Origin: Candidatus Vecturithrix granuli
GTDB lineage: Bacteria > Moduliflexota > Moduliflexia > Moduliflexales > Moduliflexaceae
Reading direction: 5' to 3'
Length of the DNA stretch: 53,803 bases
Assembly (NCBI GenBank): GCA_000739535.1
Contig: DF820465.1
Coordinates: forward strand, 63,307-117,109
In this document: piece after piece, positions 28,618-53,803 of the stretch
Numbering within the stretch: the first letter of the stretch is position 1
Layout: the number at the start of each line of letters is the position of its first letter
The notes under the pieces: generated by a model
The model's database searches: none
The model's input: the letters and a program-made list of their open reading frames with translations, nothing else
What the model was told of the DNA's origin: nothing
Made by a program: the position numbers and the translations under genes

Positions 28618-28694
28618 AACACTACAACAGATTAAAGAATGTAACGGATTAGACGTTTGATTATCCGTTGTATTCTCAAATGCGTTGTAGTGTT
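28618..28694. repeat. MITE-like repeat with aacactacaac ends
   Basis: aacactacaac (28618-28628) and gttgtagtgtt (28684-28694) are inverted ends. Within, acggattagacg and gattatccgt give partial pairing. A decayed relative is seen around 7845-7890. It lies between the thioredoxin and arsC genes. Confidence 0.55.
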
Positions 28695-28749
28695 CTCTAC
28701 GAACTACGAACAATCCTTGCTCATGAGAAATCCCTGTAGTTCCCATAAA

Positions 28750-29178
28750 ATGAAACACACGATTCTCTTCATCTGCACCCACAATTCCGCCCGTTCGCAA
28801 ATGGCGGAAGGTTTGGTCAATCATTATTTTGGAGATCGGTGGGAAGCCAAAAGCGCGGGCACAGAAAAAACCGTTGTCAAACCTTTCGCGATTCAAGCGA
28901 TGGCGGAGGCCGGGATTGACATTTCGCACCATACCTCAAAAACCATTGAGGCGTTCAAGGGGCAGCAATTCGATGTGGTGGTGACGGTCTGCGACAGCGC
29001 GAAAGAGAGCTGCCCGTTTTTTCCTGGTAAGAAAGTGGTGCATCAGAGTTTTGTCGATCCTTCGAACGTCGTGGGGACGGACGAAGAAAAGCTTGCAGCG
29101 TTTTGCCGAACTCGCGATGAAATCAAAGCCTGGCTGGATAAACAACTCCCCGTATTGGCAAAGGAATTTGAGGTGTAA
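28750..29178 (+). CDS. arsC: Arsenate reductase, low-molecular-weight phosphatase (thioredoxin-dependent) type
   Basis: A 142-residue ArsC that reduces arsenate to arsenite. FICTHNSARSQMAEG is the CX5R phosphate/arsenate-binding loop with the nucleophilic Cys. VTVCDSAKESCPFFPG supplies the second and third Cys of the thioredoxin-linked triple-Cys relay. WGxxDPS-type residues are replaced by HQSFVDPSNVVGTDEEK. ATG 28750 begins the conserved MKHTILFICTHNSARSQ. It is followed at two bases by the BFD-like gene and then ACR3, so arsenite made here is exported by the neighbour. Confidence 0.95.
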   Translation: MKHTILFICTHNSARSQMAEGLVNHYFGDRWEAKSAGTEKTVVKPFAIQAMAEAGIDISHHTSKTIEAFKGQQFDVVVTVCDSAKESCPFFPGKKVVHQSFVDPSNVVGTDEEKLAAFCRTRDEIKAWLDKQLPVLAKEFEV

Positions 29179-29393: not shown

Positions 29394-30467
29394 ATGGCAA
29401 AAGAAAAGAAACTTTCAATTTTTGAAAAATATCTGACGTTATGGGTCTTTTTGTGTATTGTCGGTGGGATTATATTGGGGAGAGTTGCCCCCGACGTCGC
29501 CGTTACATTGGATAACATGTCCATCTATCAGGTCTCGATTCCAATCGCGATCTGTTTGTTTTTCATGATGTATCCCATCATGGTGAAAATTGATTTTGCT
29601 GAAGTGATCAAAGCCGGGAAAACGCCGAAACCAGTATTATTGACTCTGTTTGTCAACTGGGCGATCAAGCCTTTTACGATGTATGCGATTGCCTCGTTTT
29701 TTTTAGGGTATGTGTTTAAAGGGCTTATTCCCGGAACAGAGATCGTTAAAACCGGCGCGACAGTCGAGCTCTGGCGTAGTTACATTTCCGGTACGATTCT
29801 GCTCGGCATAGCGCCCTGTACGGCAATGGTGCTGATGTGGGGGTATCTGGCACGTGGAAACGATGGACTAACGCTGGTGATGGTCGCGATCAATTCTTTA
29901 ACCATGCTCGTGTTGTACGCGCCGCTCGGCGGCTTCTTGCTCGGCGTGAACGCCATGCCGATCCCCTGGCAGACGATTTTATTGTCGGTCGGCATTTACG
30001 TGGCCTTACCCTTAATTGCCGGCTATTTTTCGCGCAAATGGATTATTCAGCACAAAGGGCTAACCTGGTTTGAAACCGAATTCTTGCACGTGTTGACTCC
30101 GATCTCCATCGCAGCCTTGCTGATGACGTTAGTCCTGTTATTCTCGTTTAAAGGCGAGATTATCATGACGCAGCCGCAAGCGATTCTCCTGATAGCGATC
30201 CCGCTGTTTATCCAAACCTGTTTGATTTTTATTCTGGGATATGGATTAGCCAGGGTGTTAAAGTTGACCTATCAGGATGCCGCGCCGGCCGCCATGATCG
30301 GCGCAAGCAACCACTTTGAAGTCGCGATTGCTACCTCGACCATGCTGTTCGGCCTATCCTCAGGCGCGTCGCTGGCAACCGTCGTTGGCGTCTTAATCGA
30401 GGTGCCAGTTATGTTGATGTTGGTGAAATTTTGTCTCAAAACACAACACTGGTTTCAGAAAGCCTAA
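29394..30467 (+). CDS. acr3: ACR3 family arsenite efflux transporter
   Basis: A 357-residue arsenite exporter with ten predicted membrane helices. [24 protein letters not shown] is helix 1; [21 protein letters not shown] holds the essential Cys; [41 protein letters not shown] carries the conserved Glu. ATG 29394 is preceded by aaaggagg. It follows arsC and the BFD-like protein and is followed at 12 bases by a UspA gene. It uses the proton gradient, and no ATPase is required; ArsA at 40768 lies elsewhere in the island. Confidence 0.96.
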
Positions 30468-40162: not shown

Positions 40163-40176
40163 TTATGATACCGCCA

Positions 40177-40286
40177 GGAACAAGAAGGAGAGACAAACAT
40201 GAATACATCACCCCCATTGTTCGCCATAATAGGCATAGAGGTCTCCGAGGGGAACAAGAAGGAGAGACAAACATGAATACATCACC
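40177..40286 (+). repeat. 36-base direct repeat duplicating the arsD start region
   Basis: ggaacaagaaggagagacaa, continuing acatgaatacatcacc, occurs at 40177-40212 and again at 40251-40286, offset by 74 bases. Each copy contains the same ribosome-binding site and start codon. The first copy opens a 25-codon frame and the second is the true start of arsD. Confidence 0.9.
40199..40276 (+). CDS. Mini-ORF upstream of and coupled to arsD
   Basis: A 25-codon frame (MNTSPPLFAIIGIEVSEGNK, then KERQT) uses the first copy of the duplicated start region. Its TGA overlaps the arsD ATG (ATGA at 40273-40276), so ribosomes finishing here could start arsD. The peptide has no recognised family. It is likely a by-product of the 74-base tandem duplication or a coupling leader. 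Confidence 0.4.
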   Translation: MNTSPPLFAIIGIEVSEGNKKERQT

Positions 40287-40599
40287 TACGACGATTGAAA
40301 TTTATGATCCACCCATGTGCTGCCCCGGAGGAATGTGCGGGCCAACGATTGATCCCGCGCTGCTTGCCGTTGATGACGCGATCTTGCGGATCAAAAAAAC
40401 GCAGAACGGCAACGTGACAATTGTCCGGTATTCGTTAACCCAGCAGAGCGGTAAATTTATGCAACACCCGGGGGTGTTCGAATTATTAAAAACCCAGGGG
40501 GTGGCCGCGCTGCCGGTGACGACGGTGAATGGAAAAATTGTCAAGCAACAGGAATATCCTTCGTACGAACAACTCAGTAACTGGAGTCAAGGAGTATAA
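40273..40599 (+). CDS. arsD: ArsD arsenite metallochaperone
   Basis: A 108-residue ArsD. IEIYDPPMCCPGGMCGP gives the Cys pair plus third Cys (Cys16, Cys17, Cys22 by count) matching Cys12/13/18 of the E. coli plasmid protein that hands As(III) to ArsA. VVALP-type cis-Pro is seen as GVAALPVTTVNGK in the thioredoxin-like fold. It starts 110 bases after arsR and ends 168 before arsA. ATG 40273 is supported by the SD and the conserved start. Confidence 0.93.
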   Translation: MNTSPTTIEIYDPPMCCPGGMCGPTIDPALLAVDDAILRIKKTQNGNVTIVRYSLTQQSGKFMQHPGVFELLKTQGVAALPVTTVNGKIVKQQEYPSYEQLSNWSQGV

Positions 40600-40767
40600 C
40601 TGACCACGCTGACCCAGATTCTCCAGAAATAAGTTGTAATCTGTCATTGCGAGGCTTTACGAAACAATCTCGAGGGGATGGCTTTGTCGTAGACTCCTTG
40701 CTATGACAACAGTGTTGAAACTCTATCTAATCTGTGAAATCCGGGTAAGTTGTGGCTGATAAATAAG

Positions 40768-42645
40768 ATGAATACAATGAATGCCACTCAGACGCAATAT
40801 TTGTTTTTTTCCGGCAAGGGCGGCGTGGGCAAAACCACCATGGCCTGCGCCACCGCGGTGCACCATGCAGAACAGGGCCTCAATACCCTGATTATCACTA
40901 CCGATCCAGCCTCCAATCTGGCCGATGTGTTTGAAACAGAGATCGGCCATAAGATCACGCCCCTGGGCATTCCGCGCCTGTGGGGCATGGAAATTGATCC
41001 GGACAAAGCCACCGAAGAATATCGCGAGCGCGTGCTGGGACCAATGCGGGTCGTGATGCCGGACGACATTATTAAGGTATTGGAAGAACAATTCCGATCT
41101 CCCTGCACCACTGAGATCGCCTCTTTCGATCGGTTTGTGGATTTTATGGTGGCGGAGCAATCGGGGGCAGGCATGGCGTATGATGTCGTCATTTTTGATA
41201 CCGCGCCGACCGGACACACTATTCGTCTGCTGGAGTTGCCGGTGGATTGGAGCAAACATATTGAAGAGAGCGCCAAAGGCAGCGGCAATACCTGTCTTGG
41301 CCCGGTGGCCTCCATTCAGGATCATAAACACAAATATGACGAAGCCACCCGCCTGCTCGGCGATCCGACGCGTACAACGTTCCTGTTCGTGTTGCAGCCC
41401 GACGGGACATCGCTCTATGAAACTAAACGGTCGTCGCAAGAGTTGCAGACCATCGGCGTCAAAAACATCGAATTGATCGTCAATGGGGTGTTGCCGCAGG
41501 ATGTCTGTGAGCATCCGTTCTTTGCGACGCGGTATGCGATGCAACAGCAATATCTCGCCCGGATTAAAACTGTGTTCCCGGTACCGCAGCGCACCATGTT
41601 CTTGCGCGATGGTGAGATTAAAGGTATCCCGGCACTCCAGCATATTGCCCGTGATTTATTTAGTTCCAATGGCAATACGCCATCATATCAATTGTCGAAC
41701 GCCTTCGAGGTCTCCGAACATGAGGCCGAAGTCCCGGTCGCAGAACCAATTCTGGAATTGCTGCACCCCGATGGGCAGACGAAAACGATCTTTTTTACCG
41801 GTAAAGGCGGCGTGGGCAAAACCACGATTTCGTGCGCTGCGGCTTTTCAGCTTGCTGCGCGCGGCTACAAAACCCTGTTGCTGACGACCGATCCTGCATC
41901 GCACATCGGGGAAGTGCTCGGACAAGCGGTTGGAGATCAGATTCAGCCAGTTGCAGGCATCCCCAACCTGTTTGCCACAATTATTGACCAGGAACAAGCT
42001 GTCAAAGAATACAAGCGACGCATCCTGGCGGACGCGCAGGCCAAATACTCGGAAGATATGCTCATCGCAATTCGCGAAGAGTTGGAATCGCCTTGCACTG
42101 AAGAAATGGCCGCATTCGACAAATTCATGCACTATGTCGAAAGTGAGGCCTTTGAGGTGGTCGTGTTCGATACCGCCCCGACCGGGCATACACTGCGCCT
42201 GTTGGAACTGCCGTTCGATTACGGCGATCAGGTCAGCCTGATGGTTACAACCACGGAAGAAAGCCGCGCGGCGAAATCCGAAACCCAACAACGGTTTGAC
42301 CGGATTATTACGCGCCTGAAAGATCCGCGGCGCTCGGTTTTTGCGTTTGTCGTGTACCCCGAATCCACCCCGGTTGTTGAAGCCTATCGCGCCATGCTCG
42401 ATCTCAAAGATGCCGGTATTCCCACACAACTGGTGATTGCGAATCAGGTGCTGGCGCCGGAGTATTGCGTAAATGCTTACTTTACCAAGCGGCGCACGAT
42501 GCAGGCAAAATACTTGCGCGAGATCAAACAGCGCTTTCAGATGCCAATGGCGATTATGCCGCTATTGGATACCGAAATCAGAGGGCTGGACATGGTGAAA
42601 CAGGCCGCGGCCCAGTTGTTCCGGTCGGAGGCCATGCCAAATTGA
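40768..42645 (+). CDS. arsA: ArsA arsenite-stimulated ATPase (two-domain)
   Basis: The 625-residue protein is a tandem duplicate of the ArsA/GET3 ATPase. Both halves carry a deviant Walker A (FSGKGGVGKTTMACA near residue 15 and FTGKGGVGKTTISCA near 347), the metal-binding DTAPTGHT signature (DTAPTGHTIRLLELP, DTAPTGHTLRLLELP) and Cys-containing PCTTEIASFD / PCTEEMAAFD. It takes As(III) from ArsD and energises an ArsB/ACR3-type efflux channel; the nearest exporters are the ACR3 at 29394 and the split permease at 45485. Start 40768 is chosen; no strong ribosome-binding site is seen. Confidence 0.95.
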   Translation: MNTMNATQTQYLFFSGKGGVGKTTMACATAVHHAEQGLNTLIITTDPASNLADVFETEIGHKITPLGIPRLWGMEIDPDKATEEYRERVLGPMRVVMPDDIIKVLEEQFRSPCTTEIASFDRFVDFMVAEQSGAGMAYDVVIFDTAPTGHTIRLLELPVDWSKHIEESAKGSGNTCLGPVASIQDHKHKYDEATRLLGDPTRTTFLFVLQPDGTSLYETKRSSQELQTIGVKNIELIVNGVLPQDVCEHPFFATRYAMQQQYLARIKTVFPVPQRTMFLRDGEIKGIPALQHIARDLFSSNGNTPSYQLSNAFEVSEHEAEVPVAEPILELLHPDGQTKTIFFTGKGGVGKTTISCAAAFQLAARGYKTLLLTTDPASHIGEVLGQAVGDQIQPVAGIPNLFATIIDQEQAVKEYKRRILADAQAKYSEDMLIAIREELESPCTEEMAAFDKFMHYVESEAFEVVVFDTAPTGHTLRLLELPFDYGDQVSLMVTTTEESRAAKSETQQRFDRIITRLKDPRRSVFAFVVYPESTPVVEAYRAMLDLKDAGIPTQLVIANQVLAPEYCVNAYFTKRRTMQAKYLREIKQRFQMPMAIMPLLDTEIRGLDMVKQAAAQLFRSEAMPN

Positions 42646-45970: not shown

Positions 45971-46518
45971 TGCAATCGAATCAACCACAAAAACCTCATC
46001 AACCTCCGGGTTGGGGGAAATTAGGCCGAGACGCGCTGATCTATGTCGTGGTCGCGCTGGCACTGTGGGGCATGATCGGCGTGATGGACGGTGGGAAAAT
46101 GGCCATTGCCGGCGGCATTGCGTATAACGCGATTCTGAAAGCCTGGAAGATTATCATTGCCGTGTTTATTGTGATCGGCCTGATTCAGGTCTGGATTCCG
46201 CCGGATAAGCTCTCGAAAGTGTTGGGCAAAGAAGCCGGTTGGAAAGGGTTGGCCCTGGCTTCCACGATTCCGATGCTGATCGGCGGCTCGCCGCTGACGA
46301 TTTTTCCGCTGCTGAAAACGTTACGCGAGAAAGGCGCGTCCATTGCGGCGGTCATGGCTTTTATCGCGGCCTGGAGCGGCAAAGCGCCCTTGCTGCCATT
46401 AGAGATTAAATTTCTGGGCTGGCATTTTGCGATCCTGCGCTTGGTTCTGATTATTCCCTTTGCTGTCACTTTAGGCTTAACAAGCGAGTGGATCCTGGAA
46501 CGGATCGGGGAGGAGTAA
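45970..46518 (+). CDS. UPF0718-like permease, C-terminal half (split gene)
   Basis: A 182-residue membrane protein starting MQSNQPQKPHQPPGWGKLGRDALIYVVVALALWGMIGVMDGG. STIPMLIGGSPLTIFPLLKTLREKGASIAAVMAFIAAWSGKAPLLPLEIKFLGWHFAILRL matches the conserved motif region. It overlaps the first half at a single base, so expression of the two is coupled. The transported compound is probably a thiophilic metalloid or its organo-form. The Trx-like protein at 46530 follows. Confidence 0.82.
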   Translation: MQSNQPQKPHQPPGWGKLGRDALIYVVVALALWGMIGVMDGGKMAIAGGIAYNAILKAWKIIIAVFIVIGLIQVWIPPDKLSKVLGKEAGWKGLALASTIPMLIGGSPLTIFPLLKTLREKGASIAAVMAFIAAWSGKAPLLPLEIKFLGWHFAILRLVLIIPFAVTLGLTSEWILERIGEE

Positions 46519-46529
46519 GCAAACGCATC

Positions 46530-46772
46530 ATGATTACTATTGAAATATTTAGCGGCGATTGTTCGCTGTGTGAGCAGCTTGCGGAGAACAGCAGAACAGC
46601 TTTGGAAGAACTTAAACTTCACGGAGATGTTCGCGTGGTGGCAGATCAAGATGAGATCAGAGAACGCGGCATCACTGCTACCCCCGCGCTGGTCATTAAT
46701 GATGAGGTGGAATGTCTGGGAAGAATCCCAGAGCCGGTAGAAATTATGGCCTGGCTCCAGGAAATTGTCTGA
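46530..46772 (+). CDS. Small CXXC thioredoxin/glutaredoxin-like protein
   Basis: An 80-residue protein (MITIEIFSGDCSLCEQLAENSRTALEEL) with active site CSLC (Cys11, Cys14) and a cis-Pro in GITATPALVINDEVECLGRIP, where an extra Cys sits. It closely resembles the CPKC protein at 28353 next to the other permease, showing that each UPF0718 carrier has its own small thioredoxin. ATG 46530 is chosen because the domain begins there. Confidence 0.88.
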   Translation: MITIEIFSGDCSLCEQLAENSRTALEELKLHGDVRVVADQDEIRERGITATPALVINDEVECLGRIPEPVEIMAWLQEIV

Positions 46773-46822: not shown

Positions 46823-47125
46823 ATGGCTTGGTTAACAGGATATCCAAGAGAGAACGTGGAATGGTTCCCGACGGTTGACTCAGAAAAATGCGTCAAGTGC
46901 GGGATGTGTATGAACTGCGGCAAAGCCGTGTATGAGTGGACAGACAAAGGCTCTGTGGTCGCGCGTCCGTATGCCTGTGTTGTCGGGTGTACGACCTGCG
47001 GAAACCTTTGCCTGGGAGAAGCGATTACCTTTCCTGAGCGCGCCTACATCCGCGACCTGTACAAGCGGGAAGGAATCTGGGGGAAAGTCAAAAAACAACT
47101 TCAGGATGAGGGGAAACTGAACTGA
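46823..47125 (+). CDS. Ferredoxin-like Fe-S protein
   Basis: A 100-residue paralogue of the ferredoxin at 35242. WFPTVDSEKCVKCGMCMNCGKAVYEW is the first cluster motif, with the fourth Cys moved (C..C..C..C, Pro lost). CVVGCTTCGNLCLGEAITFPERAYIRDLY is the second motif, where the expected CP is CL. It probably still binds one or two [4Fe-4S] clusters. ATG 46823 follows aggaggtaaaattgt. It closes the permease-thioredoxin transcript. Confidence 0.85.
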   Translation: MAWLTGYPRENVEWFPTVDSEKCVKCGMCMNCGKAVYEWTDKGSVVARPYACVVGCTTCGNLCLGEAITFPERAYIRDLYKREGIWGKVKKQLQDEGKLN

Positions 47126-48254: not shown

Positions 48255-49130
48255 ATGACACACAAGGATATTTTGTTCAAAGCCGGTCGAATTATGAGCA
48301 GTACATTGATTGTTGTCGTGATGGTGGGTTTGTTCATGCCTCACAATGCAGGAGCAGCGCAGCCACCGATTCTGTACCTCTTTTGGGGGGAGGGCTGTCC
48401 GCATTGTGAAAAAGAAAAGACCTTTTTGCAGGACTTTCACCAGCAGTATCCAGAAGTGGAACTCCGGCTCTTTGAAACCTGGCAGAATCGGGAATTTGCG
48501 AAATTGGCTGACGCCGTGCGTCAGACCTACCAGATCAAAGGCGCCAGCGTCCCGCTGACCGTGATGGGGGATTGGTATCTGGTCGGGTTCAGTTTATCCG
48601 GAAATTACAGCCAGCAGATTATCTCCCAGACGGAAACCTGTTTGCAGCAGGGCTGCCAGGACGTCCTGGACAAACTCGGCCCTTCGGCGATTGTGGGCCG
48701 CATCCGTTCAGAGGCTGCTGCCAATGCGCCCAACGGGTGGGAACGCTATCCGGCGGTGAGTGCTCCATCCGCGACAGGCGATGCGCACAAGAAAATCGTC
48801 GTGTTCTATTTTCACGGCGTGGAAGACTGCCCTGTCTGTTTCCAGATCGAAGAATTGACCCATCAGGCTTTGGAAGCCGGATTTCACGGTGAATTGGAAC
48901 AGGGGCGCGTGGAATTTCAGCGTATTAATGCCGAACTTCCGGAAAACCGACAGTTGGTCGAAAAATATCAGTTGACCGCCCGCGCGGTTATCGTGTCAGA
49001 AAGAGCGCAGGGGCAGGAAATTCGCTGGAAATCGCTGGAAAAAATCTGGGAATTTCTCAACAACGAACCGGCGTTTATACAGTATGTGCAAACCGAAATT
49101 ACGAATTATTTAACTGACAGCGGAGAATGA
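48255..49130 (+). CDS. arsF: Exported two-domain thioredoxin/ArsF-like protein, copy 1
   Basis: A 291-residue exported protein. A signal peptide (residues ~15-34) is followed by a thioredoxin domain with CPHC (Cys48, Cys51) and cis-Pro loop ASVPLTVMGDWYLVGF. A second thioredoxin-like domain (~170-291) has KKIVVFYFHGVEDCPVCFQIEELTHQAL (Cys192, Cys195) and ends EIRWKSLEKIWEFL. The second domain matches the ArsF family linked with nitro-arsenical reduction and ArsG efflux. ATG 48255 follows aggagaaa. It probably reduces or shuttles electrons to an arsenical or thiol in the periplasm. Confidence 0.82.
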   Translation: MTHKDILFKAGRIMSSTLIVVVMVGLFMPHNAGAAQPPILYLFWGEGCPHCEKEKTFLQDFHQQYPEVELRLFETWQNREFAKLADAVRQTYQIKGASVPLTVMGDWYLVGFSLSGNYSQQIISQTETCLQQGCQDVLDKLGPSAIVGRIRSEAAANAPNGWERYPAVSAPSATGDAHKKIVVFYFHGVEDCPVCFQIEELTHQALEAGFHGELEQGRVEFQRINAELPENRQLVEKYQLTARAVIVSERAQGQEIRWKSLEKIWEFLNNEPAFIQYVQTEITNYLTDSGE

Positions 49131-49134
49131 GTGT

Positions 49135-49710
49135 ATGTCCAAAAAAAAGAAACGCATGAAGACGCCAGCAGCGCCGCCGCAGCCCACACCACAATCCGAT
49201 CCGGCTGCGTCCGTGAACGCAAAACGCCGGACGATCATCATCGCCGTTCTCCTGATCGGGCTGCTTGGGCTTATGAGCGCAGGAGTGATCGTCAAGTTGT
49301 CGCAGAATACAGTGGTATCTGCTCTACAGCCTGATGCGCCGCAGGCATTTGCAATGCCCGAGAATCAACCGCACTCTCCCACAAAGAAGATTGTGGTCTA
49401 TTATTTTCATGGAACTGCGCGCTGCTCTTCCTGTCAGACCATTGAAGAACTCACCCATTTTGCGGTAGCTGATGGCTTTCAATCGGAACTCAAAGAGGGC
49501 TCCCTTGAATTTCATGCTATTAACGCTGAAACTCCTGAAAATCGGCATTTTATTCAAGAGTACCGGCTCTATACGAAATCGGTCATTGTGTCGGCTGTTG
49601 TGAACGGCAAAGAGATGCGCTGGAAAAACCTGGAGAAAATCTGGGAACTGTACTATGACCAAAAAGCCTTTGTGGATTATATCCAGCAAGAAATCCGGGC
49701 GTATTTGTAA
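49135..49710 (+). CDS. arsF: Membrane-anchored ArsF-like protein, copy 2 (single domain)
   Basis: A 191-residue protein: basic Pro-rich N-terminus (MSKKKKRMKTPAAPPQPT), one transmembrane helix (RRTIIIAVLLIGLLGLMSAG), then the ArsF-type domain KKIVVYYFHGTARCSSCQTIEELTHFAVADGFQSEL (Cys97, Cys100) ending GKEMRWKNLEKIWEL. It has the second domain of copies 1 and 3 but no first thioredoxin domain. It starts four bases after copy 1. The anchored single-domain form may be the terminal acceptor or partner of the two-domain proteins. Confidence 0.82.
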   Translation: MSKKKKRMKTPAAPPQPTPQSDPAASVNAKRRTIIIAVLLIGLLGLMSAGVIVKLSQNTVVSALQPDAPQAFAMPENQPHSPTKKIVVYYFHGTARCSSCQTIEELTHFAVADGFQSELKEGSLEFHAINAETPENRHFIQEYRLYTKSVIVSAVVNGKEMRWKNLEKIWELYYDQKAFVDYIQQEIRAYL

Positions 49711-49723
49711 GGAGGCGCGCTTA

Positions 49724-49810
49724 ATGAATGTGGATTTGTTGTGGGAGCCGAACAACACAGAGTTTCCGCAGCAACCTTCAACATCGAGGAAAAGGAAAAA
49801 AAGTCTATGA
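49724..49810 (+). CDS. Short coupled ORF between ArsF-like copies 2 and 3
   Basis: A 28-codon frame (MNVDLLWEPNNTEFPQQPST, then SRKRKKSL) has a strong aaggaggcgcgctta ribosome-binding site. Its TGA overlaps the ATG of copy 3 (ATGA at 49807-49810). It may be a coupling leader or the cut-off N-terminus of a copy-2-like protein, since both have a Pro/Lys-rich start. No family is recognised. Confidence 0.35.
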   Translation: MNVDLLWEPNNTEFPQQPSTSRKRKKSL

Positions 49811-50688
49811 CGTATTTACAGGAAAACAAGAGGAAGATGAGCACGTGTCTGTTGATTGTGATGATTGGAATTTTCGGCAGTATCCTGGTTCAACCGGTCG
49901 CCGCCGCTGACTCTCCGATTGTGTATCTGTTTTGGAGCGCAAATTGTCCGGCCTGTGAAGAGGAAAAAGAATTTTTACACGAACTTCAGCAAAACTATCC
50001 GCAAATAGAGATGCGCTGGTTTGACGTGGGTGCGCGTCCTGAATTTGTTGACCTTGCCATGCTGCTGTGCGAGCGCCAGAAAATCAACGCTCCGAGCATT
50101 CCCCTGACATTTCTGGGAAACTGGAGTCTTGTTGGTTTTCAGCAACGCGAGACCGGCGGCGCGCAGATCGAGGAACAAGTCAGGCTCTGCCTACAGCAGG
50201 GATGTCAGGATGCCCTGTTAGCGTTAGGGCCGCGCCAAAGTGTGCTCAACATCCGTAATGAAGCCAATTTACATATTCCCGCCGGGTGGGAGCATTATCC
50301 CGCTGTCGCGCCTCAGCAGTCCGGCTCACAGACGGCTCAACGCACAGACAAGATCATCGTCTATTATCTGCATGGCAAAGCACGCTGCGCTTCCTGTGAA
50401 ACGATCGAAGCCTATACCCGTGAAACCGTGCGCGACGCTTTTGCCGATGAGTTAAAAACCGGACAGCTTGAATTGAAGGTCCTGAATGTCGAGACGCCTG
50501 AAAATAAGCACTTCATCAAGGAGTATCAATTATACAGCCAATCCGTGGTGCTGTCGGATGTGCATGGGGAACAAGAAGTCCGGTGGAAAAATTTGCCCAG
50601 GATTTGGGAACTCCTTTACGATAAAACGGCGTTTAAGCAGTATCTTCAATCGGAAATAACCGCCTATTTGCAGGAGGGACGCTCATGA
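49807..50688 (+). CDS. arsF: Exported two-domain thioredoxin/ArsF-like protein, copy 3
   Basis: A 293-residue exported protein with the same layout as copy 1: signal peptide (MSTCLLIVMIGIFGSILVQPVAAA), first domain with CPAC (Cys47, Cys50) and cis-Pro loop PSIPLTFLGNWSLVGF, second domain KIIVYYLHGKARCASCETIEAYTRE (Cys194, Cys197) ending EVRWKNLPRIWEL. ATG 49807 overlaps the preceding short frame's stop and is preferred over the upstream in-frame ATG at 49741. Its stop overlaps the ArsG-type permease start, so the two are coupled. Confidence 0.82.
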   Translation: MTYLQENKRKMSTCLLIVMIGIFGSILVQPVAAADSPIVYLFWSANCPACEEEKEFLHELQQNYPQIEMRWFDVGARPEFVDLAMLLCERQKINAPSIPLTFLGNWSLVGFQQRETGGAQIEEQVRLCLQQGCQDALLALGPRQSVLNIRNEANLHIPAGWEHYPAVAPQQSGSQTAQRTDKIIVYYLHGKARCASCETIEAYTRETVRDAFADELKTGQLELKVLNVETPENKHFIKEYQLYSQSVVLSDVHGEQEVRWKNLPRIWELLYDKTAFKQYLQSEITAYLQEGRS

Positions 50689-51374
50689 ATACCTTTGGGA
50701 TTGACCTGGGCATGGCGCTCTGGTTTGGAATTTTGACGTCCATCAGTCCATGCCCACTGGCGACGAATATTACGGCGATTTCGTTCATTGGCCGGAAAGT
50801 CGATCAGGCCGGCTATGTGTTTTCGGCCGGATTGTTCTATATGTTAGGCCGCATGTTGACCTATACGGTATTAGGCGCGATTTTAGTATCCAGTACGCAG
50901 TTGATTTCGCCGATCGCCAATTTTCTGCAAACCTATATGATCTACCTGGTTGGCCCGGGACTGATTGTGCTTGGCGTCCTGCTGTTGGATGTGATCAAGC
51001 TCAATCTCGGCGGCAGCCTTATGAGCGACCGTCTGCAAGCCCGAATTGAACGCGCGGGCCTCTGGGGCGCGGGCTTGATGGGCGTCATCTTTGCGTTGTC
51101 CTTCTGTCCGATTTCCGCCGGATTGTTTTTCGGCAGCTTGTTTGGTATGGCTATGCGACACGGTTCGCGGCTGCTGATTCCCTCGCTGTATGGCGTGGGC
51201 ACGGCCATCCCGGTGCTGGTGTTTGCGTTTGTCCTGGCGTTTTCGGCGAATCTGATTGGAAAAGCCTTTCACAAACTCAGCGTGTTCGAATTGTGGGCGC
51301 GGCGTGTGACCGGATTTGTCGCAATCCTGGCCGGACTCTATTTGTGTGTGACCCAAATTTTTTACCTCTTTTGA
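50685..51374 (+). CDS. arsG: ArsG-type efflux permease (CcdA/DsbD-like fold)
   Basis: A 229-residue, six-helix membrane protein. LTSISPCPLATNITAISFIGRKVDQAG (Cys23) and ALSFCPISAGLFFGSLFGMAMRHGSRLLIPSLYGVGTAIP are the two conserved Cys-Pro segments of the CcdA-related family to which ArsG belongs. ArsG is known from an arsEFG operon exporting aromatic arsenicals. It overlaps the ArsF-like copy 3 by four bases. It may export arsenicals reduced by the ArsF proteins or pass electrons across the membrane as CcdA does; homology alone does not decide. Confidence 0.8.
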   Translation: MNTFGIDLGMALWFGILTSISPCPLATNITAISFIGRKVDQAGYVFSAGLFYMLGRMLTYTVLGAILVSSTQLISPIANFLQTYMIYLVGPGLIVLGVLLLDVIKLNLGGSLMSDRLQARIERAGLWGAGLMGVIFALSFCPISAGLFFGSLFGMAMRHGSRLLIPSLYGVGTAIPVLVFAFVLAFSANLIGKAFHKLSVFELWARRVTGFVAILAGLYLCVTQIFYLF

Positions 51375-51386
51375 GGGAGGACGATT

Positions 51387-51716
51387 ATGGAAAATATCGC
51401 CTGGACTATCAAAATGTTTATCCTGAAGCGGCAGCCTGGTCCGGGAGGTTATACTTGCTGCGGGCCAATCGGCCAGACAAGCGAGCAAATTCAGGACTTG
51501 CAGGCCGCGATCGAAAGCGCGACAGGCTGCCAGGTTGAGGTGTATAATGTCGGCAGGTTTGGAGCCGAGCAGCCTCCTCGCATGGTTGTTGATCTGATGA
51601 GTACATTGGGCATAAAAGCGCTGCCGATTGTCATCATGAATGATGAGGCTGTCTCGATCGGCAAGGTGACTCCGGAACCTATTATTGCCGCGATCAAGGC
51701 GAAACTTGCAGCTTGA
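51387..51716 (+). CDS. Small thioredoxin-fold Cys-Cys protein
   Basis: A 109-residue protein. YTCCGPIGQTSEQIQDLQAAIESATGCQVEVYNVG has adjacent Cys (Cys24, Cys25), and GIKALPIVIMNDEAVSIGKVTPEPIIAAIKAKLAA shows the cis-Pro strand of a thioredoxin-like fold. The ArsD-like arrangement suggests a metalloid chaperone or electron carrier for the ArsF-ArsG system. ATG 51387 follows gagggaggacg, 12 bases after ArsG. A frameshifted paralogue lies at 52867-53201, and the DNA after both stops is also similar. Confidence 0.75.
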   Translation: MENIAWTIKMFILKRQPGPGGYTCCGPIGQTSEQIQDLQAAIESATGCQVEVYNVGRFGAEQPPRMVVDLMSTLGIKALPIVIMNDEAVSIGKVTPEPIIAAIKAKLAA

Positions 51717-51825
51717 ACACTAAGTAACTACACGAATTTCATATAAGAAAGAATAGATCCTGCCACGCCTGACATCAAATTCTTTCCTATATGCGATTCT
51801 CGTAGGTTCATGGGAGGACATATCT

Positions 51826-52122
51826 ATGTTACCACACATTGTATTATCTGAAAAACTCAAAACCTATATTCGTTCAAAACAAGGGGTACTGACTATCGGA
51901 AACTTTTATGTGATCAAAGGCTGATGAAACGCCGTCAAATTACCGTCCGGTCGGATGGTATCGCCTGAAGAGATGTTCCCGAAAGTGAACAGCGACGATT
52001 TTTATGAATTTTCCCTTGATGGCCTGCGAGTCTTCATTCAAAAGAGTTTTGTTGACACGCAGGCTGACATTGAATTTCTGATCCCGTATTTTGGGAAAGA
52101 GAAGATTTTCATCCAGCGTTAA
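51826..52122 (+). CDS. CC/Se-motif small protein with two consecutive UGA codons (probable Sec-Sec)
   Basis: Reading through TGA TGA at 51922-51927 (codons 33-34) gives a 98-residue protein: MLPHIVLSEKLKTYIRSKQG, VLTIGNFYVIKG-U-U-NAVKLPSG, RMVSPEEMFPKVNSDDFYEF, then DGLRVFIQKSFVD and a normal TAA. The frame is coherent on both sides. Small proteins with Cys-Cys, Cys-Sec or Sec-Sec at this position are known (CC/Se-motif family), and the pattern fits by memory. Downstream of the second UGA, after 13 bases, lies a strong hairpin with a GGUC loop. The ribosome-binding site is ggagg nine bases upstream. It is placed after the ArsF-ArsG array, and its role is unknown; a selenol pair would be a potent redox or soft-metal centre. 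Confidence 0.85.
51941..51960 (+). promoter_or_regulatory. SECIS-like hairpin for the UGA-UGA gene
   Basis: taccgtccggtcggatggta folds into an 8-bp stem (one G-U pair) closed by a ggtc loop. It starts 13 bases after the second UGA, close to the 11-base spacing in E. coli fdhF. The exposed GU in the loop matches the feature recognised by SelB in that model. Confidence 0.8.
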
Positions 52123-52164: not shown

Positions 52165-52860
52165 ATGAAAGTTATACATTTTTGCAAGTATCTTCTGATT
52201 GTCGTGTTGAGCGTGGGCGGAGGTCTTACGACCCATGCTGCGCCGCAGATCACCTTTGAAGAAACGACCTTTGATTACGGCGACGTCCAGGCTGACAGCA
52301 CGATCACGCACATCTTTGTTTTCAGAAATACAGGGGATGAACCGTTAATCATTGAAAGCCTGCAAAGTCTGTGAGGGTGCAGCGCGTCGCTGGCTTCCCG
52401 CGACGCCATCCCTCCGGGCAGTGAGGGAACGATTACGGTCAAGGTGGAGGTGGGGTCGCGGCGGCGGGAACTCCGGGAACCGGTGAGGATCCAAACCAAT
52501 GATCCTGAACAGCCCGTTACTCAAATCTTTGTGATGGCCAATGTGCTGGCTGATATTGAGGTCACGCCCCCATTACTGCGCTTTGGCGATCACCAATCTC
52601 TGGCGCAGGTTACGGTGAAAAGTTATGTGGATGCGCCTGTGGAACTGCGCGAGATTCGCGCTGACCGCCATCTCGAGGCGACGGTCTCGGCCATGACGAT
52701 TCCGGTGCACGGCGAAGTCGTGGTGAGTGCGGAACTGATCAAAGAGAAGATTCCGGAATTTGTGAAAGGGCATGTGGGCGGCTTGGTGGAGATTACAACC
52801 AACCTTGAATCCATGCCGACAATTCGTATTCCCATCTGGGCCAAAAAACCTGTAAAATAA
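52165..52860 (+). CDS. Exported DUF1573 protein with in-frame UGA (probable selenoprotein)
   Basis: Reading through TGA at 52372-52374 (codon 70) gives 231 residues. Residues 1-27 form a signal peptide (MKVIHFCKYLLIVVLSVGGG, cleavage near THA). The DUF1573 domain follows: FEETTFDYGDVQADSTITHIFVFRNTGDEPLIIESLQSL-U-GCSASLASRDAIPPGSEGTITVKVEV. The family motif is SCGCT, and the UGA sits at the first Cys, giving U-G-C. A second Ig-like domain (~120-231) continues to TAA 52858-52860. A 7-bp hairpin follows the UGA by nine bases. ATG 52165 has a weak ribosome-binding site. It is probably periplasmic and redox-active, placed 42 bases after the UGA-UGA gene. Confidence 0.82.
52384..52406 (+). promoter_or_regulatory. 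SECIS-like hairpin in the DUF1573 gene
   Basis: gcgtcgc (52384-52390) and gcgacgc (52400-52406) form a perfect 7-bp stem with loop tggcttccc, nine bases after the UGA. Position and size fit a bacterial SECIS. The loop lacks the clear ggtc of the other gene, so this one is less certain. Confidence 0.6.
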
Positions 52861-52866
52861 GCGAGT

Positions 52867-53201
52867 ATGACACTGATTAAAATTTTTATGTTGTCTCAAT
52901 ACGGCGATCCGGGAACTTGTGCATGCGGCGGTTCTTTCGGACAATCAGAAGAGCAGATTCAGGCGTTGCATTATGCTCTTGAAGAGGCGTTCGATTGTCA
53001 AGTCGATTCGATTGTCAAGTCGAGGTGTATGATATCAGCCGACGAGGTGACATGCAAAGGGATCGCATAGTTTTTGATTCGATGAGTACGTCCGGCGTAA
53101 AAGCGTTGCCGATTGTCGTCGTGAATGATGAAGTCATCTCGACTGGCAAGGTGACTCCGGAACCTGTTATTGCCGCGCTCAAGGCGAAACTTGCAGCTTG
53201 A
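52867..53201 (+). pseudogene. Frameshifted paralogue of the small thioredoxin-fold protein
   Basis: The first frame from 52867 reads MTLIKIFMLSQYGDPGTCAC, GGSFGQSEEQIQALHYALEEAFDCQVD and then leaves the family, ending at TAG 53068-53070. The remainder of the family sequence (VEVYDISRRGDMQRDRIVFD to IAALKAKLAA) continues in another frame to TGA 53199-53201. The cause is a 17-base tandem duplication (ttcgattgtcaagtcga at 52990-53006 and 53007-53023). Removing one copy restores one 106-residue protein paralogous to 51387. Cys18 and Cys20 replace the adjacent Cys pair. It is a recent lesion or a phase-variable state. Confidence 0.88.
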
Positions 53202-53477
53202 ACATTAAGTAAATCCAGGAATTTCATAGAAGAAAGCAGAGATTTCTGCCATACCTGAAATCACATTCTTGCTTATTCTTCATTCCTGTAGTTTCATAGA
53301 AGTTGTCATGAGTGGGCGCTCACCCGGTATGATGAAACTCCAAGAACAGCGATACGCAAGAATATGCTTGAGACACGGTTCTTGCTTATCTTCGTTCCTG
53401 TAGTTTCATAGGAGTTATTCATGTGTTGTGGCAAACACACCACAACGCATGAAAATTCTCTGTTCAGGGGAGATGGG

Positions 53478-53542
53478 ATGTCGCGCGAAACTCCAGTTTC
53501 GCGGTTGTCAACGATGCGCGAAACTGGAGTTTCGCGCGACAT
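53478..53542. repeat. Hairpin repeat of the gcgaaactggagtttcgc family
   Basis: Arms of ~26 bases (53478-53503 and 53517-53542) are inverted copies, and the centre gttgtcaacgatg matches the family centre seen, in the opposite orientation, at 6237-6299. It lies inside the tandem array. Confidence 0.75.
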
Positions 53543-53576
53543 TTTCAGGGAGCTTGTGCTCACCCGCCGCAATGAA

Positions 53577-53677
53577 ACTACAAGGATGTTGTGTAGGAAG
53601 GATTTCTACCGGTGAATTGGTCGGCGCGACGCCAAATCCTGCCTCCGAGAATCCTTCCTACACGACATCCTTGTAGT
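53577..53677. mobile_element. MITE-like element with 28-base inverted ends
   Basis: actacaaggatgttgtgtag, continuing gaaggatt (53577-53604), and its complement at 53650-53677 differ by one base. The ~45-base centre is unique. The right arm ends in the gtagtttcacaggag leader of the third array unit. Confidence 0.7.
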
Positions 53678-53727
53678 TTCACAGGAGTTGTCATGAGCGG
53701 GCACTCACCCGGCATCATGAAAATCAG

Positions 53728-53792
53728 ATGTACCGCGAAACTCCAGTTTTGCGGCTGTCAACGATGCGCGAAACTGGAGTTTCGCGCTACAT
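53728..53792. repeat. Hairpin repeat of the gcgaaactggagtttcgc family, terminal copy
   Basis: Same layout as 53478-53542 with centre ggctgtcaacgatg; the left arm has a single change (agttttgcgg). It runs almost to the window end, and the sequence after it (ttttcagggga) is also repeated after the copy at 53542. Confidence 0.75.
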
Positions 53793-53803
53793 TTTCAGGG
53801 GAG

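Follow-up and report, generated by a model that had tools for sequence, protein, structure and literature searches.

The window, a 53,803-nucleotide stretch of the Candidatus Vecturithrix granuli genome, contains a small gene that very probably encodes a real selenoprotein with two adjacent selenocysteines (Sec-Sec, or UU). This was the central claim of the initial annotation, and it is strongly supported by conservation of the UGA pair and by the genome's own tRNA-Sec, SelA and SelD, the last with a UGA inside its frame. Taken as a whole, the explanation we favor is also highly likely: the gene would encode a Sec-Sec selenoprotein, one hairpin would direct insertion at both UGAs, and the protein would have a role in an arsenic island.

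A small gene with two adjacent in-frame UGA codons

The Sec-Sec gene has a good ribosome-binding site, with 7 nt between GGGAGGA and the ATG (Table 1). Rereading the sequence confirmed what had been described at the outset, namely that the frame is broken by TGATGA only, that 64 in-frame codons follow before the TAA, and that an 8-bp hairpin with a GGTC loop lies downstream of the pair. The residue context of the two UGAs is Gly-Sec-Sec-Asn. TGATGA hexamers occur 68 times on the two strands of the window, and this is the only one with at least 32 open codons before it and at least 60 after it in frame. The site stands above chance because all 14 homologues carry TGATGA at the same place.

Table 1. 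Features of the Sec-Sec gene and its arsenic island, in window coordinates
Feature	Position	Strand	Remarks
ArsC arsenate reductase	28657-29178	+	TIGR02691, E 1.5e-37
ACR3 arsenite pump	29394-30467	+	TIGR00832, 399 bits; same island as ArsC
ArsD	40165-40599	+	NF033727, 101 bits
ArsA	40750-42645	+	TIGR00345, 483 bits
ArsE-family thioredoxin-like protein	46488-46772	+	TIGR00412, 62.8 bits, over cut-off
Three ArsF-family thioredoxin-fold proteins	48255-49130, 49135-49710, 49741-50688	+	NF040494, all three over cut-off
ArsG-family (CcdA-like) membrane protein	50685-51374	+	NF040495, 263 bits, over cut-off
Small thioredoxin/ArsD-like protein with CC motif, directly upstream of the Sec-Sec gene	51387-51716	+	Weak ArsD and thioredoxin matches only
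Likely ribosome-binding site, GGGAGGA	51812-51818	+	From reading the sequence
Probable Sec-Sec protein gene	51826-52122	+	98 residues, U33 and U34, stop TAA 52120-52122
TGA TGA, adjacent in-frame codons, probably read as Sec-Sec	51922-51927	+	Kept in 15/15 sequences
SECIS-type hairpin, 8 bp (51941-51948 with 51953-51960)	51941-51960	+	Loop GGTC, 51949-51952
DUF1573/OS_HP2-type selenoprotein	52165-52860	+	TGA 52372-52374 in S-L-U-G-C-S

The UGA pair is conserved across phyla and is never replaced by cysteine

The window protein used alone as a query returned nothing from genome contigs, viral contigs or plasmids, and only chance-level matches from Pfam (Ral, E 0.007) and from a sequence search of solved structures. 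A scan of 97 relatives gave one match, from another phylum, that contained two TGAs. Searching 13 Delongbacteria/UBP11 genomes yielded five homologues, each with two TGAs, and an alignment-based scan across named genomes gained two from Cloacimonadota. The search of that phylum found a homologue in 8 of 125 genomes, and a wide genome sample added one divergent homologue (G326); an alignment-based search of viral contigs for the Sec-Sec protein found nothing. The final set of 14 homologues (five from Delongbacteria, eight from Cloacimonadota and the more distant G326) makes 15 sequences with the window copy and spans at least three phyla.

When each homologue was read individually, both UGAs were adjacent and in frame in 14 of 14. 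Gly, Sec and Sec are the only three invariant columns of the 15-sequence alignment, in which the window copy shares 35-42% identity with members from other phyla. The initial annotation had proposed that the UGAs replace a Cys-Cys pair found in family members. That did not hold, as no Cys occurs at either position in the 15-sequence alignment, where every member is UU, and the related proteins of family NF041239 are also without a CC pair. Selenoprotein families usually count Cys homologues among their members, so the UU family stands out, and the alignment points to apparent selection for the Sec-Sec pair in preference to any form with Cys.

The genome also holds a C-terminal fragment of the Sec-Sec protein about 14.7 kb downstream (G000:C19:129879-130037, locus L021), which has neither the UU motif nor the hairpin and is probably a broken duplicate of the gene.

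The Sec-Sec gene lies at the end of an arsenic island

An arsenic island occupies about 25.6 to 52.9 kb of the window, with the Sec-Sec gene at its end. It encodes ArsR-like regulators, an ArsP/SO_0444-like permease, ArsC, ACR3, ArsD, ArsA, ArsE, three ArsF proteins and ArsG. The next gene, starting 43 bp downstream of the Sec-Sec gene, encodes the DUF1573 selenoprotein (PF07610, E 9e-21; NF041425, E 1e-23, 83 of 100 bits), and a strong hairpin follows its in-frame TGA (z -2.7).

Several other elements were seen in and around this region. A second copy of the upstream thioredoxin-like gene follows both selenoprotein genes (52867-53201); a short direct duplication breaks its frame around 53000-53020. 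Both this island (46823-47125) and the arsenic island of a Cloacimonadota genome (L041, 2892-3203) encode a small ferredoxin-like protein (MAWLTGYPRE...) with weak similarity to HgcB-type ferredoxins. Repeats of about 35 bp (cgcgaaactggagtttcgcgc...) lie at 53340-53803, just before an assembly gap, with an N run downstream (L034, 3110-4198).

The same neighborhood recurs with the homologues. Arsenic genes (ACR3, ArsC, ArsR, ArsP-like, ArsE, ArsG/CcdA-like, ArsM) lie near the Sec-Sec gene in 11 of the 15 loci. It sits between or beside arsC and acr3 in two (L041, L042), and its neighbors in L035-L039, L097, L099 and L101 are CcdA-like, thioredoxin-like, CDF, permease, ArsR, ArsM, ACR3 or ArsC genes; ArsR, CDF, CcdA-like and yedE labels that lacked a family match were assigned by reading translations. 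No arsenic genes were seen near the gene in the other four loci (G326, L092, L094, which is at a contig end, and L096).

This setting suggests that the UU protein probably has a role in arsenic handling. The vicinal Sec pair would most likely be its working site, kept reduced via the neighboring thioredoxin/CcdA relay of the ArsE-ArsF-ArsG type. The diselenol could then bind or reduce arsenic species, As(III) would be handed on to efflux or methylation proteins, and the site would be left as a diselenide for renewed reduction. General chemistry favors a diselenol/diselenide arsenic site: vicinal dithiols are binders of As(III), and selenols, besides being softer, have greater acidity and cycle more readily. 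We offer this particular mechanism tentatively, as one that may well prove wrong.

The main competitor concerns this functional part of the explanation and leaves the Sec-Sec part untouched: a Sec-Sec protein with a general selenium or iron-sulfur role, for example as an A-type/HesB-like carrier, instead of one in arsenic handling. AlphaFold models of UU proteins (pLDDT 71 and 74) match IscA, SufA and AQ_1857 best among known structures, all of the A-type HesB/IscA fold, at Z values of 2.5-4.4 that fall below the tool's stated background level, so that an A-type Fe-S carrier fold is a lead and not a result. The most divergent UU gene, in G326, is also found about 5 kb from selD, along with DUF3343-like, cysteine desulfurase and yedE genes (G326:C43, locus L052, 1849-8400), a context in which a second role of the UU protein in selenium metabolism is possible. 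Against these points stand the weak structural scores and the arsenic genes beside most family members, and we judge a general role to be unlikely, though it is the alternative that deserves the most attention.

If the arsenic link holds, the UU protein would give anaerobic bacteria an arsenic-handling site based on selenium and would be a clear, small target for biochemistry; the obligate Sec-Sec pair, if true, would be a sign of unusual selenium-arsenic chemistry.

One SECIS-type hairpin follows both UGA codons

The bacterial SECIS model places the hairpin 16-37 nt from the UGA (PMC13188914). In the window hairpin the loop begins 24 nt after the first UGA and 21 nt after the second, so both distances fit the published model. 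The 44-nt segment folds at -15.2 kcal/mol (z = -2.2). Among the 2,127 TGAs on both strands of the window, only three have a GGTC-loop hairpin of at least 7 bp at 16-37 nt, and these three overlap or neighbor one another at this site.

A first count of base pairs, made with nine sequences, was blurred because the G326 hairpin sits 4 nt nearer, and a second count left G326 out. In the resulting 14 aligned sequences the distance from hairpin to UGA is identical and three inner pairs are never broken. Compensated changes run from G-U to A-U, from C-G to U-G, and from A-U to G-U or G-C, and the closing C-G pair is A-U once. This covariation is modest, its score being reached in 16 of 500 shuffles. 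The loop reads GGUC in the window copy, in G326 and in seven of the eight Cloacimonadota sequences, whereas Delongbacteria have GGGC. Taken alone, some of the homologous hairpins fold weakly (L036, at -6.4 kcal/mol) or adopt other folds (L039 and L050).

Part of the sequence conservation in the hairpin arises because the coding motif PSGxMV is itself conserved. Synonymous sites in the hairpin are constrained within Delongbacteria (84% vs 56%, p 7e-5) and not significantly so across phyla (51% vs 42%, p 0.2), and for this reason the synonymous-site test is not our main evidence. Conservation of the hairpin together with both UGAs in at least three phyla gives strong support to the initial reading of a Sec-Sec protein with a SECIS-type element and an fdhF-like SelB-binding loop.

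Both consecutive UGAs would then be read as Sec, with the single hairpin serving them in two successive rounds of decoding. In bacteria the spacing between a SECIS and its UGA has to be suitable, and a conserved UGA pair with one hairpin offers a test of how strict this spacing is and of SelB's ability to act at two codons in succession.

The genome encodes selenium machinery and an unusual tRNA

The initial annotation had pointed to the selenium genes as a check on its reading. Most of them are present in the window's genome: a tRNA-Sec with a UCA anticodon (69.7 bits), SelA (630 bits) and SelD with an internal TGA (382 bits). Neither TIGR00475 nor PF09107 detected SelB in this assembly, so that an absence which the initial annotation had listed as refuting does hold here; the best match among the candidates is EF-Tu, and the others that were read are CysN/C, TypA and LepA. 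Of 16 genomes searched, 14 have SelB, the family relative G001 among them. The window's assembly is 93.8% complete with 10.75% contamination, is scaffolded, and contains a run of N. Because almost all other carriers and G001 have selB, an assembly gap is the likelier, if unproven, reason for its absence here.

The same genome encodes a tRNA-Sec-like tRNA with the Cys anticodon GCA (G000:C16:163011-163105, minus strand; locus L002, 1501-1595). It scores 58 bits, over the Rfam cut-off, has a U before CCA, and is flanked by yedF and a cysteine desulfurase gene, adjoining the UGA-containing selD and yedE. It resembles the selC* tRNA-Cys, whose listed carriers are Firmicutes, Thermodesulfobacteria, Nitrospirae and Proteobacteria (PMC7609411).

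Such a tRNA suggests a reading in which one UGA is decoded as Sec and the other by a selC-like tRNA-Cys or a near-cognate tRNA, giving a Cys-Sec or Sec-Cys product. A single hairpin cannot hold one fixed distance to both codons, and the single Cys/Sec of distant relatives aligns with the second UGA, both of which would agree with such a product. However, a GCA anticodon cannot read UGA, both spacings lie within the 16-37 nt of the bacterial model (PMC13188914), and no homologue has a Cys codon in place of either UGA, as would be expected if Cys were wanted. We consider this mixed product improbable and retain Sec at both positions.

Codons after the UGA pair are probably translated in frame

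Slightly less room is left for a double stop, with termination regulated or translation re-initiated, in which a 32-residue peptide would end at the UGAs and the rest would be made from a downstream ATG (51955 or 51973) or as a separate small protein. Two adjacent stops would indeed be tight, and Met44 and Met50 are widely conserved and could be starts. However, the stretch from the UGAs to the following Met has a conserved N-A-x-K-x-P-S-G, which indicates that this region is translated. Asn35, Ala36, Lys38, Pro40, Ser41 and Gly42, invariant in an eight-sequence alignment, precede the first possible downstream in-frame start, which is a strong argument against simple stop and re-initiation. 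All 15 sequences keep the frame without a shift, similarity to the selenoproteins of NF041239 extends across the UGA site, and the overlapping ATG at 51924 yields only 14 codons. A double stop is thus very unlikely.

It is scarcely credible that UGA is a sense codon here (Trp or Gly) or that the site marks a pseudogene or a sequencing error, for although adjacent UGAs are rare and the assembly is partly contaminated, neighboring genes stop at TGA (e.g. ArsG at 51374) and UGA is therefore not a general sense codon, a tRNA-Sec is present, the known selenoproteins SelD and DUF1573 carry in-frame UGAs, and the error that the initial annotation had itself raised is contradicted by the same TGATGA in 14 independent genomes.

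Comparison with known families and systems

The closest known family is NF041239, the 'CC/Se motif family', with a CxxU motif and one Sec (PMC13188914). The window protein scores 23.5 bits against its model and the homologues 18.9-30.6, all under the cut-off of 40, with individual E values of 3e-7 to 1e-3 for UU proteins. A profile-profile comparison with the UU family gives a probability of 95% and E 3e-8, with the second UGA aligned to the Cys/Sec site of NF041239. Size, the N-terminal strand-helix pattern and the overall order of elements are the same in UU proteins and NF041239 (Moorella-type) proteins. In contrast to the UU family, the NF041239 members that were fetched carry C or CxxU, with a Cys three residues before Sec in the UGA-bearing ones, and never UU. 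Judged by these comparisons, the UU proteins are distant relatives of NF041239 that fall outside its membership threshold.

Adjacent Sec residues have a precedent in the algal protein PDI_e, whose GUGUU motif led its authors to call it the first selenoprotein with two consecutive Sec (PMC7539508). PDI_e shares the consecutive pair with the UU family but is a eukaryotic PDI/thioredoxin-fold protein with three Sec (PMC7539508). No UU motif is listed for any of the 119 families in a 2026 inventory of prokaryotic selenoproteins, where motifs such as CU, UxxU and UxxxxU do occur (PMC13188914). NCBIfam names of the form 'ArsM...UU' were considered as possible adjacent pairs and rejected, since the two Sec are read as lying in separate domains (UxxG and CxxU; PMC13188914). 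We found no bacterial adjacent Sec-Sec in the open-access literature, where the algal protein is the sole precedent, and the UU family is apparently the first adjacent Sec pair in bacteria. It may even be the first bacterial family with an obligate vicinal di-Sec, a Cys-irreplaceable arsenic center, and one SECIS driving two insertions at two spacings, although we advance this fuller claim with less confidence than doubt.

The UU gene has its genomic setting in common with ArsEFG and the classical ars systems (ArsC, ACR3, ArsD, ArsA, ArsM), but none of the named ars families contains the UU protein. Some ars proteins have vicinal Cys pairs that bind As(III). The DUF1573/OS_HP2 selenoproteins, although neighbors in the window, are unrelated in sequence and have a UGC motif with one Sec.

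In eukaryotes the SECIS element is located in the 3' UTR, which lets one element serve several UGAs; the hairpin of the UU gene differs in lying within the coding sequence, immediately after the codons. This placement is that of E. coli fdhF, whose SECIS is a coding-region hairpin just 3' of the UGA with an apical GGUC. In fdhF one hairpin serves one UGA, whereas in the UU gene two UGAs lie at different distances from the same loop, and what would be new here is this use of one coding-region SECIS for two codons together with an obligate adjacent Sec pair.
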